From: Silvibacterium dinghuense
GTDB taxonomy: Bacteria > Acidobacteriota > Terriglobia > Terriglobales > Acidobacteriaceae
Direction: 5' to 3'
Assembly: GCF_004123295.1 (NCBI RefSeq)
Contig: NZ_SDMK01000003.1
Coordinates: 186,001 to 250,000, forward strand
Length of the DNA: 64,000 bases
Made by a program: the position numbers and the translations under genes
Shown: positions 4,660-53,877 of the stretch, piece by piece
Layout: every line of letters begins with the position of its first letter
Position numbering within the stretch: the stretch's first letter is position 1
The notes under the pieces: model-generated
Database searches by the model: none
What the model was told of the DNA's origin: nothing
The model's input: the letters and a program-made list of their open reading frames with translations, nothing else

Positions 4660-5523
4660 CTAGAACTTGCCCGGAGGCGGGGTGTGCGCCTGCTGCACGA
4701 TGGCGTTGGTGATCTCGAGGAACATCATGCGCAGCTCGAAGAGCAGGCTCTGCAGCAGACGCTGCTGCGCCTCGGTCAGATTGCCCTTGGTCTTCTCTTC
4801 GAGCGCGGTCAGCATGTCGATGCTCTGCCGCGCGCCGAGAATATCGATCCGCGGCTTCTGGCCGGGCTCGGCCGCCGCACCCATGGCGACCACCGCCGAG
4901 AGGTAGATCGACTGGAAGACATGCTCGATGCCGACCGGCCCAAGGTCCTTCATTCCCGGATTCTGCTGCCGCAACAGCTCATCCAACTGCAGGGTGGTCT
5001 CCTGATAGGCGGCATGCTGCTCGGCGGCCTCCGCAGCGGAAGGCTCTTCGAAACTTCCCTGCCCCTCGCCCTCGAGTGGTGCCTCGGCTACCGGCTCAGG
5101 CACCACCACAGGAGCTGGAGCCGGCGGTGGAGGCGGCGCAGGAGCAGCAGGGCGCGAAGGCATGGTCACGACGCGCGCGCCGGCAACTGGAGCCGTCTCC
5201 GCTGCGGCGGCGAACTGGCCGGGGGCGGGGTGAACCGCTTCGGCAATATCCGCGGTGAACTGGCCAGGAGCAGGATGCACGGCATCGGCCACATTCGCAG
5301 TGAATTGCCCGGGCGCCGGATGCACGGCTTCGGCCACATCCGCGGCGAACTGGCCAGGGGCGGGATGGACAGCCTCGGCCGCGTGCGCGGCGAAGTCGAT
5401 GGGCGCAGCAGCAGGCGCGGCAGGAGCAGCCGGGGCGGGGCTCTCGGCAGGATTGCGCAGATCGCCATCCTCGGTGAACTTGCGGCGATCGGTCACGGTA
5501 AATGCGGGCGGTTTCTCTGCCAT
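4660..5523 (-). CDS. DUF1844 protein with four 15-residue HPAPGQF repeats
   Basis: The C-terminal part (about residues 190-287) matches DUF1844: a conserved helical segment around IYLSAVVAMGA, then LTEAQQRLLQSLLFELRMMFLE. The amino terminus FTVTDRRKFTEDG is the start I recall for acidobacterial members. Between them is a low-complexity Ala/Pro region holding four tandem copies of a 15-residue unit with HPAPGQF at residues 53, 68, 83 and 98 (DNA about 5200-5379). A further Pro-rich stretch follows. The start is ATG 5523, preceded by GAGGA; an upstream TTG or GTG would add 13 unrelated residues. Function is unknown. It lies in the ygfZ-ribF operon. Confidence 0.8.
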   Translation of the reverse strand: MAEKPPAFTVTDRRKFTEDGDLRNPAESPAPAAPAAPAAAPIDFAAHAAEAVHPAPGQFAADVAEAVHPAPGQFTANVADAVHPAPGQFTADIAEAVHPAPGQFAAAAETAPVAGARVVTMPSRPAAPAPPPPPAPAPVVVPEPVAEAPLEGEGQGSFEEPSAAEAAEQHAAYQETTLQLDELLRQQNPGMKDLGPVGIEHVFQSIYLSAVVAMGAAAEPGQKPRIDILGARQSIDMLTALEEKTKGNLTEAQQRLLQSLLFELRMMFLEITNAIVQQAHTPPPGKF

Positions 5524-8360: not shown

Positions 8361-8526
8361 GTTGGCCATATTTCCATATGGCCAGCTCAAAATAAATGAC
8401 TTCCTTTTGCGATTGTCGTTCCGACCGGAGCGAGCCGAAGGCGAGCGCAGCGCAGGACGATAAAACTGTCCTGCTCCGGTCGAAATGACAGCTGTTTGCT
8501 GTTGCTCGATGTGAATACAGCTTTAG
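8361..8526. repeat. MITE-like palindromic repeat, diverged copy A
   Basis: This intergenic element has an inner inverted repeat: TTGTCGTTCCGACCGGAGCG (from 8413) pairs with CTGCTCCGGTCGAAATGACA (ending 8490). The left arm (TATTTCCATATGG, then CTCAAAATAAATGACTTCC) aligns with the left arm of the full copy at 37626. The right end GAATACAGCTTTAG includes the TAA stop of the leftward glycine-rich gene. An 8-bp perfect hairpin GGCCATAT-TTCC-ATATGGCC (8365-8384) lies in the left arm and could act as a terminator for the upstream rightward gene. Confidence 0.7.
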
Positions 8527-31745: not shown

Positions 31746-32084
31746 GTCATCTTGCCCGATAGCGATATCGCTCATCCATCTCATCCATATCGGCTCATCC
31801 CTGGCGTTGTTATTTCGACCGGAACAGGACCGCTCCCGCTGGTCGCGAGCCAGAGTGCTGCGGGACCAAGCAAAAACCGCAGGTCCCTCCACTTCGCTCG
31901 CCGTGAGAGAGCACAGAGGACACAGAGGGTTCCGTGCCACGGCTGTCCTCCCTTTCAGCGCAAAGTCCGCCAAGACGCAAAGCCCGCAAAGACACCCCCA
32001 AAATGCCGGCGCGCGACCGGAGGGAGCGGAGGCCGAAGGCGATCCGCACTGCGCGCAGCAGCCCGATGAGACAATGTTTTTGAA
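31746..32084. repeat. Intergenic region with degenerate repeat elements
   Basis: This 339-bp gap before the penicillin acylase gene holds a degenerate MITE-like segment (from TTGTTATTTCGACCGGA at 31807 to about 31915, with an inner GCAGGTCCCTCCACTTCGC block). A direct-repeat-like stretch of GACACAGAGG and AGGACACAG follows. A 40-bp block AGCGGAGGCCGAAGGC...CTGCGCGCAGCAGCC at about 32024-32063 recurs at 37936-37977. No gene or clear promoter was identified. Confidence 0.5.
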
Positions 32085-37184: not shown

Positions 37185-37242
37185 TTGTCATCTCTCCACT
37201 GCGCGAGACGATGAAACCGTCTCGCTTCGGTCGGAATGACAA
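37185..37242. repeat. Short palindromic repeat, copy B
   Basis: TTGTCATC at the left and CGGTCGGAATGACAA at the right frame a short copy of the inner repeat, with an inner GCGAGACGATGAAACCGTCTCGC hairpin. It lies between ispA and the SufT-like gene and ends 18-33 bp before its start. Confidence 0.55.
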
Positions 37243-37275: not shown

Positions 37276-37629
37276 ATGAATCACACGACCTTCACCGCTG
37301 ACGACATCTTCACCGCGCTCTGCGACGTCAACGATCCCGAGGTTCCGCTGAACATTGTGGACCTCGGTCTGATCTATCGCGTGGATGTTTCGCTCGATAA
37401 GGACGCGCCCGGCGCAGGCATTCCCGGCGTCCCACCGCGCTACCGCGCCGAAGTCGACGTGACCATGACCTCGACCGGCTGCCCGGCGCACGAGATGATT
37501 CTCGAAAAAGTGCGCAACCGCCTGGCCGGTATGCCGCAACTCAGCGACATTCGCGTACAGCTTGTCTGGGAACCAGCCTGGACCCCGCAGCGCATCAGCG
37601 AAGCCGGGCGCAAGAAGCTGGGGATCTAG
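37276..37629 (+). CDS. sufT: SufT-like metal-sulfur cluster assembly factor (DUF59/MIP18)
   Basis: The 117-residue protein (from ATG 37276; ATG 37261 is an alternative) matches the DUF59/MIP18 family: CDVNDPEVPLNIVDLGLIYRVDV near the start and MTSTGCPAHEMILEKVRNRL with the reactive cysteine. These proteins help load iron-sulfur clusters onto target proteins. Its TAG stop lies inside the CTAG end of a MITE-like element. It may be the final gene of the penicillin-acylase/ispA run, although a repeat separates them. Confidence 0.88.
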   Translation: MNHTTFTADDIFTALCDVNDPEVPLNIVDLGLIYRVDVSLDKDAPGAGIPGVPPRYRAEVDVTMTSTGCPAHEMILEKVRNRLAGMPQLSDIRVQLVWEPAWTPQRISEAGRKKLGI

Positions 37630-37835
37630 GTTGTATCCACATATAGGTGTCCTGAAACTAAAGAACTTACCCTTATCGTTGTCATCCCGACCGGAGCGGA
37701 GCGCAGTGGAGGGACCTGCGGTGTTGCCGGTACCGGAGAAAACTGCAGGTTTCTCCACTCCGCAGGACGATAAAACTGTCCTGCTCCGGTCGAAATGACA
37801 GCCTTTTACCATCACTATAGGTGGATACGGCCTAG
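37626..37835. repeat. MITE-like palindromic repeat, complete copy C
   Basis: The ends are CTAG (37626-37629 and 37832-37835), followed inward by GTTGTATCCACATATAG and its near-complement CTATAGGTGGATACGGC. An inner inverted repeat TTGTCATCCCGACCGGAGCG / GCTCCGGTCGAAATGACA surrounds a third pairing (GGAGGGACCTGC against GCAGGTTTCTCC). The left CTAG contains the TAG stop codon of the SufT-like gene. The whole sequence could fold as one long hairpin and encodes no protein. Confidence 0.8.
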
Positions 37836-37856
37836 GGCTCAGGCTCAAATAAAAAT

Positions 37857-37883
37857 CCCACGTCTCAACTGCGAGACGTGGGG
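37857..37883. repeat. Short hairpin repeat CCCACGTCTC...GAGACGTGGG
   Basis: CCCACGTCTC pairs exactly with GAGACGTGGG around a 6-nt loop, preceded by AAAAAT. I recognise this hairpin as a frequent intergenic motif in Acidobacteriaceae genomes, but that is from memory. It has no T-run, so terminator function is unproven. Confidence 0.5.
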
Positions 37884-37934
37884 CACCCGGGTTCTTTTCT
37901 CTTTCAAGAGAACAAAATCTCAATCGCGATCAGA

Positions 37935-37977
37935 GGAAGCGGAGGCCGAAGGCGGATCGCCCTGCGCGAAGCAGCCG
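37935..37977. repeat. Second copy of a 40-bp GC-rich repeat
   Basis: GGAAGCGGAGGCCGAAGGC and CTGCGCGAAGCAGCC match the block at 32024-32063. It lies just before the stop codon of the leftward hypothetical gene at 38024. No coding function is evident. Confidence 0.45.
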
Positions 37978-40027: not shown

Positions 40028-40213
40028 TGTCATTCCGACCGAAGCGACCGCAGGGAGCGAAGTAGAGGAACCTGCGGTTCTCTCGATAAGCAAGGACGAA
40101 AGTGCCCCACTCAAGCTCTGCCTGGGTGGGAAGGCACAATCCACGCACCGGCAAGCCTGTGCACTCACGAAAGCGAAGAGCCGCAGGTCCCTCCACTTCG
40201 GTCGGGATGACAA
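40028..40213. repeat. MITE-like palindromic repeat, copy D
   Basis: TGTCATTCCGACCGAAGCG (from 40028) and CTTCGGTCGGGATGACA (ending 40212) form the inner inverted repeat. Inner pairs such as GAGGAACCTGCGG and CCGCAGGTCCCTC resemble those of copies C and E. The outer TATCCAC arms are not recognisable. The element fills the space between the convergent catalase and bshC stop codons. Confidence 0.7.
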
Positions 40214-45917: not shown

Positions 45918-46172
45918 CTAGGCAGTATCCACATATGGCTGTATTGGAATAGCGGAGTGAGTCCAAAGTTGTCATTCCGACCGAAGCGTACCAGGGTCCC
46001 CGGCGCGCCTGCATCTGGCGCGCTGGGGTGGGGTAGCGGAGTGGAGGAACCTGCAGTTCTTCGCTGGTACGGGTGGAAACCGCAGGTCCCTCCGCTTCGC
46101 TCACCTTTGGCTCGCTTCGGTCGGGATGACAGTTTGCGTTATGGCTATAAGCTATAAGTGGATACGTTCTAG
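45918..46172. repeat. MITE-like palindromic repeat, complete copy E
   Basis: CTAG bounds both ends (45918-45921 and 46169-46172). Inward are GCAGTATCCACATATGG and its counterpart CTATAAGTGGATACGTT. The inner inverted repeat TTGTCATTCCGACCGAAGCG / CGCTTCGGTCGGGATGACA and a GC-rich insertion GGCGCGCC follow. The right CTAG supplies the TAG stop codon of the leftward membrane-protein gene. Confidence 0.8.
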
Positions 46173-47323
46173 GTGGATGGCCCCGATGCGACAGGGTCCA
46201 CCACCACCTCGGTCCCGCCATCGGCATTGCCTCCGCCATTCCCGCCCGGGTCCGGCCCTGTGCCCCCTGGCTGGCCACCAGCCAGGTCAGGACCGGCGTC
46301 CGGCGTCACCACATTCACCACCGGTCCTGTTACCTGCGGAGCGGCTACGATCGGCGGCGGCTCGGCGCGTGGCGGCCTGTCGCCGGCCAGCCGGATATTG
46401 ATCAGCTTGTTCACCGCATCGAACCAGAATGGCGCACCCAGCGAAACGGCAATGCCGGTGAGTCCCCATCCGGCCAGGTGCAGCACCCAGCTCCAAGCGA
46501 TCTCCAGCCGGTCATCCCATGACCCGCCTTCGAGCGTCTTCCCGGCATATCTCCAGTACTTCGCCGTCTGGTGGTAGCCCACCGGGATGTACCGCTCGAG
46601 ATGACCTGTCATCTCGCTGCGCGCATCCCTGTATCGCTCGTCGGTGCACCCGCCGGCATCCCTGCAGCTATACATCTGCGCGGTCGTGGTCAGCACGGTA
46701 CGCGCGTCTTCCGAGCTCCACAGCTTCTCGGTGATCGAAAACAGATTCGCGTTGCACAGCACGGCCAGCGCGATGCCCAGGTAAAGCAGGATGGTCTGTG
46801 TGTTCTTCTTGTATAGCCCGTTGATGCGGTCCATCGTGTTGTCGTACCACTGCTCGAGCGCCAGCGTGGATGCGCCGGCACGCTGCTCCGTTCCCTCCAG
46901 CACCGCCTGCAGGCGCCGCTTCAGGTCCACATCGTCGACCTTCTCCACCAGGCTGTGGAGCGGGGCTCCGCGCATGTTATGCCGCTCGGCAAGAATTGCG
47001 ATCAGCACGCGGCTGAAAAGTGTGGAGGGGATGTACGACGGCCGCGATGCTGCTGCGCCACCCTCCTGCTTCCGTGGCGATACCTTGCCGTCGTGCAGCG
47101 TCACCGTAACGCGCGGAGCAGAAAAAGAGATGGTCTGAATCAGCGGATGCGCAAAAAACTCCGCGGCCACGCTCTTGCCCAGCATGTTGTCAATGGCGCT
47201 GGCCAGCGAGGCCGCCCGCCGCGAGGTAAACGACGCCCACAGCTCCTGCAGGTGCGAGGCGATGATGCTCAACATCAGGCACACGACCGAGATGCCGATC
47301 GCTACTCCCAGAACCCGTTCCAT
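46169..47323 (-). CDS. Membrane protein paired with a patatin-like lipase
   Basis: The 384-residue protein has three predicted membrane helices: residues 4-24, about 172-196 and about 282-310. A charged domain of roughly 130 residues lies between the first two. The third helix ends GAPFWFDAVNKLINIRL, a motif I recall in uncharacterised bacterial membrane proteins. A flexible Pro/Gly/Asp-rich tail is last. I do not recognise a named family or an enzyme motif. It starts 30 bp after the stop of the patatin-like gene on the same strand, so the two probably form an operon. Its stop codon lies inside copy E of the repeat. Confidence 0.7.
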   Translation of the reverse strand: MERVLGVAIGISVVCLMLSIIASHLQELWASFTSRRAASLASAIDNMLGKSVAAEFFAHPLIQTISFSAPRVTVTLHDGKVSPRKQEGGAAASRPSYIPSTLFSRVLIAILAERHNMRGAPLHSLVEKVDDVDLKRRLQAVLEGTEQRAGASTLALEQWYDNTMDRINGLYKKNTQTILLYLGIALAVLCNANLFSITEKLWSSEDARTVLTTTAQMYSCRDAGGCTDERYRDARSEMTGHLERYIPVGYHQTAKYWRYAGKTLEGGSWDDRLEIAWSWVLHLAGWGLTGIAVSLGAPFWFDAVNKLINIRLAGDRPPRAEPPPIVAAPQVTGPVVNVVTPDAGPDLAGGQPGGTGPDPGGNGGGNADGGTEVVVDPVASGPST

Positions 47324-52300: not shown

Positions 52301-52453
52301 TTGTCATCCCGACCGGAGCGTAATGGAGGGACCCGCAGTTTCCACCAGCTCCGGCAGGAAACGCAGGTTTCTCCGCTTCGCAGGACGATACTACCGTCCT
52401 GCTCCGGTCGAAATGACAATCGCTTGCATGAGTTCTATATCGATACAGCTTAG
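52301..52453. repeat. MITE-like palindromic repeat, copy F (left end missing)
   Basis: TTGTCATCCCGACCGGAGCG (from 52301) and TGCTCCGGTCGAAATGACA enclose inner repeats GGAGGGACCCGCAG and GCAGGTTTCTCC. The right end ATCGATACAGCTTAG overlaps the TAA stop of the leftward phosphoesterase gene. The left TATCCAC arm is not recognisable, perhaps because the copy is close to the divergent peroxidase start. Confidence 0.7.
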
Positions 52454-53877
52454 AAGGGGAGCTTCACATACGGCGTCTCGCCGTTGTTGCCCGGTTCATG
52501 GCTGCGACCCGTGCCCGCGCCGCTCTCGAAGATGTCTTCATCCTCGCCGATCGTGTCCAGGTGATAGCTGGTCCTGCGATCGTCGGCCGCGTAGCCGATG
52601 TGGTCGAGATGGAAGATGTCTTCGATGCTGCGGAGCATCGAGTAATGGTTATAAGGCGTGTCGGAGGTGCTGCCCGCCTTGATGAAGGGCGAGAGCAGCA
52701 CAGCGCCGATGCGGTCGCCGCCGTAGCCGTTGAACACCAGCTGCTCGAGCAGCGAAGAGGTATCGACCAGCGTCAGCGTCGCAGGACGCACGCCGCTCAG
52801 GTTCGCGCCCGGCTGCTGATCGCAGCAGGTCTGCCCCGTATAGTTGATGGACACCACTTCCTGCCCGCTCGCGTTCTCACTGACGCTCTCTGTGGCGTAG
52901 TTGCTCTCGTCGAAGGTGATCAGCAGCAGGCCGTCCTGCTTGAAGGCCGGTGAGTTGGTGATCTGCGGCACCCAGGTCTTGAGGAAGGCGTCGGCCGAGG
53001 TCAATCCGCCGGGCTGGCCATTGGCGCAGGTGGTGCCCGTCGCGCCGGTGCCGCTGCCGTCGTGGCCGTCATTGCACAGGTTGGGCGTGATGAAGACCAG
53101 GTTCGGCGTGGTGTCCGCGCTCTTGAGGTCGCTGGCCAGCGCGTTCAGGTTGACCACATGCTTGCCGCAGTAGGCCTGATCGTCAATGATCGAATGGAAG
53201 TACATGAAGGGATCGTGCCGGGTGGCGTAGGCGTCGCCGAGCGGCACCGAGCTGCTGGGCGCCACGGCGCTGTTCGTGTTGTCCGTGCCAACGCCAATGG
53301 CCGGATGGCCGCAGGTAGCGCTTTCCCGGGTCGGATCATTGCCCATGTCTTCCATATAACCGCGCCAGCTCAGGCCCGCCTTGTCGAGCTGCCTGGGAAG
53401 ATTCGGCACGTCCTTGGCATAAATGCAGCCGCCCTGCGCCACTACCTGCCCCTGCGCCGCCCAGCCGGTCTGGTCCACGTTGTTGTAATTGCCGATGCTC
53501 GAAGTCAGGTTGGGAATGCAGTCGTCATCGGTGTCCTGCGTAGGCGCCTGGCCGCTGATGAGCGAGATGTAGTTGTCGAGCGAGACATGGCCCGTGCCGT
53601 AATACTGCGTCAGCAGCGCGCCTTCCGGCACCAGCGTGTTCTGCAGATAGGGGTCCTGCGTGCTCGAGCCGAAGGTCACCGCGTAGTTCTTGTTTTCAAG
53701 CACGATGACGAAGACATGCTTCACGCCGGCGGCTGCAGTGGGCACGCGGTGCGAGTCGCCCTGCGCGTCGTGGTTCGAAGATTGGCTGGATTCGGCGGCT
53801 GCAAACTGCGGCGTACCGAATGCCAGCGCCGCGGCGAGACATCCGCAGGCCGCCCGCTCGAGAAAGCTGCGTAACAT
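52450..53877 (-). CDS. Exported phosphoesterase (phospholipase C / acid phosphatase AcpA-like)
   Basis: From ATG 53877 (preceded by GGAGGAA) the protein is 475 residues. A signal peptide (about residues 10-26, ending FAAAES) precedes a PF04185-like phosphoesterase domain, with VIVLENKNYAVTFG and VSLDNYISLISGQAP in the N-terminal half. The C-terminal half has LLLITFDESNY and RIGAVLLSPFIKAG. Such enzymes cleave phosphate monoesters or phospholipid head groups outside the cell; the substrate is uncertain. Its TAA stop lies in the right end of repeat copy F. Confidence 0.88.
   Translation of the reverse strand: MLRSFLERAACGCLAAALAFGTPQFAAAESSQSSNHDAQGDSHRVPTAAAGVKHVFVIVLENKNYAVTFGSSTQDPYLQNTLVPEGALLTQYYGTGHVSLDNYISLISGQAPTQDTDDDCIPNLTSSIGNYNNVDQTGWAAQGQVVAQGGCIYAKDVPNLPRQLDKAGLSWRGYMEDMGNDPTRESATCGHPAIGVGTDNTNSAVAPSSSVPLGDAYATRHDPFMYFHSIIDDQAYCGKHVVNLNALASDLKSADTTPNLVFITPNLCNDGHDGSGTGATGTTCANGQPGGLTSADAFLKTWVPQITNSPAFKQDGLLLITFDESNYATESVSENASGQEVVSINYTGQTCCDQQPGANLSGVRPATLTLVDTSSLLEQLVFNGYGGDRIGAVLLSPFIKAGSTSDTPYNHYSMLRSIEDIFHLDHIGYAADDRRTSYHLDTIGEDEDIFESGAGTGRSHEPGNNGETPYVKLPF

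Follow-up and report, generated by a model that had tools for sequence, protein, structure and literature searches.

A probable IS5-family MITE at stop codons and between convergent genes in Silvibacterium dinghuense

Overview

We report a family of short elements in Silvibacterium dinghuense that we interpret, with a probability of roughly 0.92, as a non-autonomous miniature inverted-repeat transposable element (MITE) of the IS5 family, which inserts into YTAR targets, is mobilized in trans, and survives at stop codons and in the gaps between convergent genes. The MITE would be moved by an IS5-family DDE transposase (DUF4096 + DDE_Tnp_1, of the transpos_IS5_3 type) via ends that take the form of inverted repeats, GNNGTATCC(A/C)CNTA(T/G)AG, and would enter YTAR sites, above all CTAG, with a putative 4-bp duplication. 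The duplicated target would retain the stop, such that a gene ending in a TAG or TAA within it still ends there with its protein intact. Insertions at stops and between convergent genes would accordingly persist, while those in gene interiors or upstream regions would mostly be lost, presumably by selection. The interior of the element is a palindromic repeat of the lineage, which is also found alone.

Two nested repeat families in the window

The window, i.e., the entire 64,000-nucleotide stretch that was analyzed (C3:186001-250000), belongs to a genome of 5,116,187 bases (~5.1 Mb) in nine contigs. The first-pass annotation of this DNA had named seven places in it as copies of one MITE family. 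All seven are real repeats, but the single family does not hold, as two things are combined in it, a MITE with CTAG ends and an inner palindrome that also occurs by itself. The outer ends were scored, at a cut of 15, with an ungapped profile that had been trained on ends from this genome and left the four target bases out of account. The features are:

8361-8526: copy A; right end recognizable (score 17.7), left outer end not recognizable
31807-31915: degenerate copy; degenerate inner repeat without a detected outer end
37185-37242: short copy; inner palindrome without a detected outer end
37626-37835: copy C, complete MITE; CTAG at 37626-37629, body 37630-37831, CTAG at 37832-37835
37679-37801: inner palindromic repeat of copy C, its arms at 37679-37698 and 37782-37801
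40028-40213: copy D; inner palindromic repeat without a detected outer IS5-type end
45918-46172: copy E, complete MITE of 255 bp with a CTAG at either end; the ends score 16.8 and 17.3
52301-52453: copy F; inner repeat and a weak right outer end (score 14.9, below the cut of 15)
8523-8525, minus strand: TAA stop of a glycine-rich gene, at copy A
37627-37629, plus strand: TAG stop of the SufT-like gene, which spans 37276-37629; the stop is part of the CTAG at the left end of copy C
46169-46171, minus strand: TAG stop of the gene 46169-47323, in the right CTAG of copy E
52450-52452, minus strand: TAA stop of the phosphoesterase gene (52450-53745), at copy F

The inner motif TTGTCATTNCGACCGGAGCG occurs 12 times in the window with up to three mismatches, against 0.05 expected from 100 shuffles. 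Copies C and E display CTAG plus GNNGTATCCAC at each end, in line with the earlier reading of CTAG followed by complementary inner sequences, and they are the only ones for which the profile scan found both outer ends in the window. The ends of copy C score 28.6 and 24.3; it contains no predicted genes (as per a gene caller purpose-written for this analysis) and has full-length relatives elsewhere in its own genome, the best of which is 93% identical. The inner inverted repeat ascribed to all copies applies only loosely to the short and degenerate ones, each of which has one arm (up to three mismatches). Copy D, the short copy, and the degenerate copy have no outer end scoring at least 13 within 350 bp by the ungapped profile, which can miss worn ends; on present evidence we rejected these three as members of the CTAG-ended element. 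No Rfam model matches the window at gathering score. Two further repeats were observed in the window: one of the CCCACGTCTC..GAGACGTGGGGCACCC type directly adjoins copy C (37836-37976) and is up to 96% identical to copies elsewhere in the genome, and another at 5207-5431 has a 45-nt spacing, with a 90-nt match in four overlapping copies.

The two components differ in their distribution across genomes. A BLAST search with copy C recovered 64 pieces in its own genome, about 20 of them near full length, and matches in 9 of 41 genomes (its own and 40 relatives, with at most 19 candidates scored per genome). All listed matches from relatives are confined to positions 45-183 of the 210-base query, mostly to about 54-97, and never reach the outer ends. 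The outer-end pattern YTAGGNNGTATCCNC (up to one mismatch) occurs 134 times in the own genome against 37 in the reversed control, and is at or below control in all eight congeners, while the inner motif numbers 311 in the own genome against 3 in the control and the inner palindromic repeat is present in congeners too. In the large stretches up to 42 of 123 inner half-sites are solo, with no outer end within 350 bp, a figure that is an upper bound since some of these sites show worn ends missed by the profile. As judged by its spread across relatives, the inner palindrome is a separate family and is probably older than the outer ends, which by the same counts are a family expanded in S. dinghuense. 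At one locus (G000:C4:360242-360441), a MITE appears to sit inside the loop of an inner palindrome.

Ends, target and duplication across the genome

The profile was run on 941,852 of the 5,116,187 bases, in merged stretches chosen partly for element matches, and returned 111 ends that combine into 75 elements, 36 of them both-ended; at a cut of 14 the reversed control gave 6 hits against 120 real ones before merging. Given that it missed an end found by pattern search at C4:257490, the 75 elements are a lower bound. Both-ended elements span 121-474 bp, with most of the family at 180-320 bp; they are short and multi-copy and lack a transposase gene, as is typical of MITEs. The target retains an intact TA at 79 of the 111 ends, preceded by C (60), T (15), or A (4) and never by G. 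The tetramers are CTAG (54), TTAG (14), CTAA (5), ATAG (4), TTAA (1), and CTAC (1), and the target is changed or shifted at the remaining 32 ends. Thus, 73 of the 79 intact-TA ends are CTAG, TTAG, or CTAA, and 75 have C or T before the TA. This pattern bears out the proposal, made from the window alone, of insertion into YTAR-like targets by an IS5-type element with CTAG/TTAG ends; YTAR is the conserved duplication motif of IS5 (PMC10359306).

Sixteen of the 36 both-ended elements have identical tetramers at their two sides (13 CTAG, 2 CTAA, 1 CTGG) and 20 have unlike ones; as CTAG is palindromic, the 13 CTAG pairs are equally compatible with a 4-bp and a 2-bp duplication. All five CTAA ends scoring at least 15 continue with G, like most CTAG ends, which favors a 4-bp YTAR duplication, while unlike pairs such as TTAG/CTAG make a 2-bp TA duplication possible. 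Two pairs of elements lie back-to-back with one CTAG in common (G000:C2:640599-640602 and C2:269596-269599); in each pair, one element has entered the target that the other had duplicated before it.

A partner IS5-family transposase

The first-pass annotation had suggested looking for an IS5-family transposase with the same ends, and such genes are present, in decayed form in the own genome and also in related genomes. A PF01609 search of the own genome yielded three pieces in two places and no intact transposase gene. One of these places is a decayed IS (body L063:1472-2272) located in the right-hand CTAG of a MITE; it is flanked by CTAG on both sides, and its ends, GGCGTATCTACATATT and GTTGTGTCGACATATT, match GTRTCNACATAT without mismatch on either side. 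Its fragments match PF01609 (DDE_Tnp_1) and PF13340 (DUF4096) above cut-off and reach 81.3 bits against transpos_IS5_3, which is under the whole-protein cut-off.

Relatives of the transposase were recovered in 12 of 60 family genomes, the own genome included, and both ends are of the MITE type in 3 of the 14 loci examined in other genomes (L146, L147, L158), with CTAG at five of their six ends and GTAG at one. A scan of public genomes for MITE-type ends gave 38 stretches, all from Acidobacteria records. Among them, an Acidobacteriales MAG (L256, JAATFM010000219.1) contains an IS of ~830 bp with CTAG and the core GTATCCACATATAG, identical to the MITE end core, at both ends; its two overlapping frames score 135.5 and 149.8 bits against the transpos_IS5_3 cut-off of 110. 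The transposase frames of the matching IS match DUF4096 and DDE_Tnp_1. The MITE and these IS of the IS5 family thus have their terminal inverted repeats in common. In other Acidobacteria all 39 exact matches to the end pattern, which leaves the first target base open, are preceded by C to give CTAG, though these are not independent, many being copies of one IS in few genomes. Five stretches (L236, L238, L242, L245, and L255, from Granulicella sp. S156) have IS5-type ends within ~70 bases of the stretch end, as if a multi-copy IS had broken the assembly.

Stop codons in the target

In the window, the four stops that the first-pass annotation had placed in element ends (SufT-like gene, membrane gene, glycine-rich gene, and phosphoesterase) were each located there at the positions listed above. 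The SufT-like protein matches PF01883 and the phosphoesterase PF04185, while the protein of gene 46169-47323 has no Pfam match at E 0.001. The stop at copy A was counted with a one-base offset, and that at copy F, whose end score is below the cut, is outside the genome-wide count. In that count, which rests on 725 genes called by our purpose-written caller, the target contains a stop codon at 42 of the 111 ends, corresponding to 42 of the 75 elements and 25 of the 36 both-ended ones. These stops are 39 TAG and 3 TAA, 39 are at offset 0 and 3 at one base, and 37 of the 42 genes have a gene score of at least 15. At a further 17 ends a stop precedes the element by up to 100 bp, one end has a gene ending within the first 60 bp of the element, and 51 ends have neither. 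Truncation of genes by insertion was rejected as the main source of the overlap, since insertions in random frames should place gene ends a short way into the element and in the target with similar frequency, and we found one within the 60 bp examined against 42.

Could the transposase or a host factor steer insertion to stop codons beyond its YTAR preference? Several comparisons point this way. Among the 70 ends that face a gene end within -60 to 200 bp, 39 do so at distance 0 and three at distance 1. Within the large stretches, non-interior CTAG, TTAG, and CTAA sites not close to repeats served as controls; 119/493 of these are at stops (44/168 for CTAG alone), and against them the 42/75 elements are in clear excess (Fisher p=7e-8). 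The controls were built with genes scoring 8 or more, a cut-off that two of the 42 fall below; the matched figure is 40/75 (p=7e-7), or 37/75 without the offset (p=2e-5) and 17/36 for elements in the large stretches (p=0.005). However, elements also tend to lie between convergent genes (37/75, against 77/493 control sites), and in such gaps stops are found at 27/37 elements and at 16/23 ordinary CTAG sites; the corresponding figures are 15/33 and 28/113 in tandem gaps, and 0/5 and 0/32 in divergent ones. Stratified by gene arrangement, the odds ratio against the three tetramers is 2.65 (p=0.0008), falling to 2.34 (p=0.004) with the matched cut-off and 1.94 (p=0.027) without the offset, whereas against CTAG it is 1.94 (p=0.067), 1.70 (p=0.15), and 1.37 (p=0.45), respectively, and 1.5 (p=0.39) in the large stretches. 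The both-ended elements give the highest values, 4.37 (p=0.0005) against the three tetramers and 3.0 (p=0.024) against CTAG. In other Acidobacteria, 8 of 39 ends are on a stop, with 12 having any facing gene end within -90 to 40 bp. Much of the stop excess goes with the location between convergent genes, and the residue is not robust, as it varies with the control set. Most of the effect is explained by target preference, by the absence of elements from gene interiors, and by their avoidance of regions upstream of genes; target preference with purifying selection suffices, and we consider active steering to stops improbable. The earlier proposal of stop codons as a safe niche fits the 42 elements in this position, but the excess stems largely from the availability of sites outside gene interiors and from the convergent location.

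Another explanation with comparably low odds is that the hairpin acts at the 3'-end of genes, as a terminator or mRNA stabilizer, and that the stop position was selected for this function. Copy C indeed folds over almost its whole length (-107.5 kcal/mol, z -10.8, with none of 200 shuffles as stable), and the convergent location noted above would be in keeping with such a role; yet a long hairpin follows from the terminal and inner inverted repeats in any case, promoter avoidance would yield the same orientation bias, and no conservation was seen, the outer ends not exceeding control in the eight congeners. Less probable still is the notion that these are REP/REPIN-type elements moved by a RAYT (Y1_Tnp). 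They are palindromic, intergenic, and present in many copies, and the termini of one REP class, the GTAG REPs, have been reported to provide TAG stops (PMC3733652). Nevertheless, the sole Y1_Tnp match of the genome is flanked by a different, GGCACGGCTTCAGCCGTGCC-like palindrome, a search of its 3,324-bp locus allowing up to four mismatches did not reveal the inner motif, and the outer ends match IS5-family IS. We rejected a RAYT/REPIN origin of the outer element, as the RAYT gene lacks the same flanking repeat. The Y1_Tnp match (L064, G000:C1:2075683-2076006) is a single RAYT-like gene with its own GGCACGGCTTCAGCCGTGCC-like palindromes.

Orthologous loci in congeners

The first-pass annotation had proposed a comparison with empty sites in related strains. 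Four congeners (G001, G006, G007, G008) do lack an intact element at sufT, but they are too distant for the exact pre-insertion tetramer to be read. Their SufT orthologs end one codon later; in G001, G007, and G008 the stops are TAA, TAG, and TAG, respectively, with no element, and once the element is removed, the S. dinghuense flanks form an alignment with G001 that spans the junction (127 columns, 73% identity). The G006 sufT ends inside CTAGGCGGTATCCC, which resembles a worn element end at the same place and is the sole one of 15 G006 matches with the full CTAGGNNGTATCC; it would represent either a shared old insertion or an independent hit on the same stop. This worn MITE-like end is at G006:C1:405241-405255 (L161), and G006 is otherwise not enriched in such ends.

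Of 43 stop-sited genes queried against syntenic stretches (400 kb of G006, 160 kb of G001), sufT alone had a clear ortholog, the other matches (27-46% identical) being taken as probable paralogs. The trpD orthologs whose ends were read, those of G006, G008, G005, and G002, end within four residues of the own protein, and no element occurs in the 107 bases after the stop in these four genomes. Among 25 junction-spanning matches, there was no exact one-tetramer empty site: two are sufT in G001 (overlapping loci), one is the neighbor of the element itself, one is another repeat, and the remaining 21 are the inner repeat around one nested element.

Other cargo and wider significance

Elements with the same kind of ends around other interiors were also recovered, namely one of 179 bp with a different TGTCAT repeat (L228) and one of 185 bp with a CCCAGGTCTC..GAGACCTGGG palindrome (L247). 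These two cases suggest that IS5-type ends may repeatedly have taken up host palindromes. A palindrome like that of the 185-bp element adjoins copy C. More speculatively, and in our estimation doubtful, the IS5-type ends of Acidobacteriaceae might repeatedly take species-specific extragenic palindromes of the lineage as cargo, dock at stops, and spread host hairpins as ready-made gene 3'-ends; if true, one transposase would be spreading host hairpins as the 3'-ends of genes.

The family offers a countable case, with a matching IS and dozens of copies, of a transposon whose target motif renders insertion at stop codons harmless, and one in which genuine seeking of stop codons is told apart from target availability and selection. 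A further caution is that palindromic repeats of Acidobacteriaceae can be nested families that are easily merged. Among the literature matches listed, most subscription journals being outside their scope, none described this family, nor any IS5 MITE positioned at a stop codon.

Comparison with known systems

Correia elements, which are bacterial MITEs, differ in their ends from the present family, which has IS5-type ends around a separate lineage palindrome. The likeness to Correia elements lies in their being short, non-coding, and multi-copy, with terminal inverted repeats (PMC10969869). With IS5-family IS the family has in common CTAG-flanked ends, a partner IS with frames at the transpos_IS5_3 level, and the YTAR target described for IS5 (PMC10359306), but the window elements are without a transposase and the matching IS of the own genome is decayed. 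GTAG REPs are alike in that their termini often supply the TAG stop to flanking ORFs, and differ in being 20-40 bp long and associated with a tyrosine transposase, without IS5-type ends (Di Nocera et al., 2013; PMC3733652). The principle of supplying a stop is thus already in print for another element, and the S. dinghuense family is an ordinary, unusually clear instance of a type of element that is already known.
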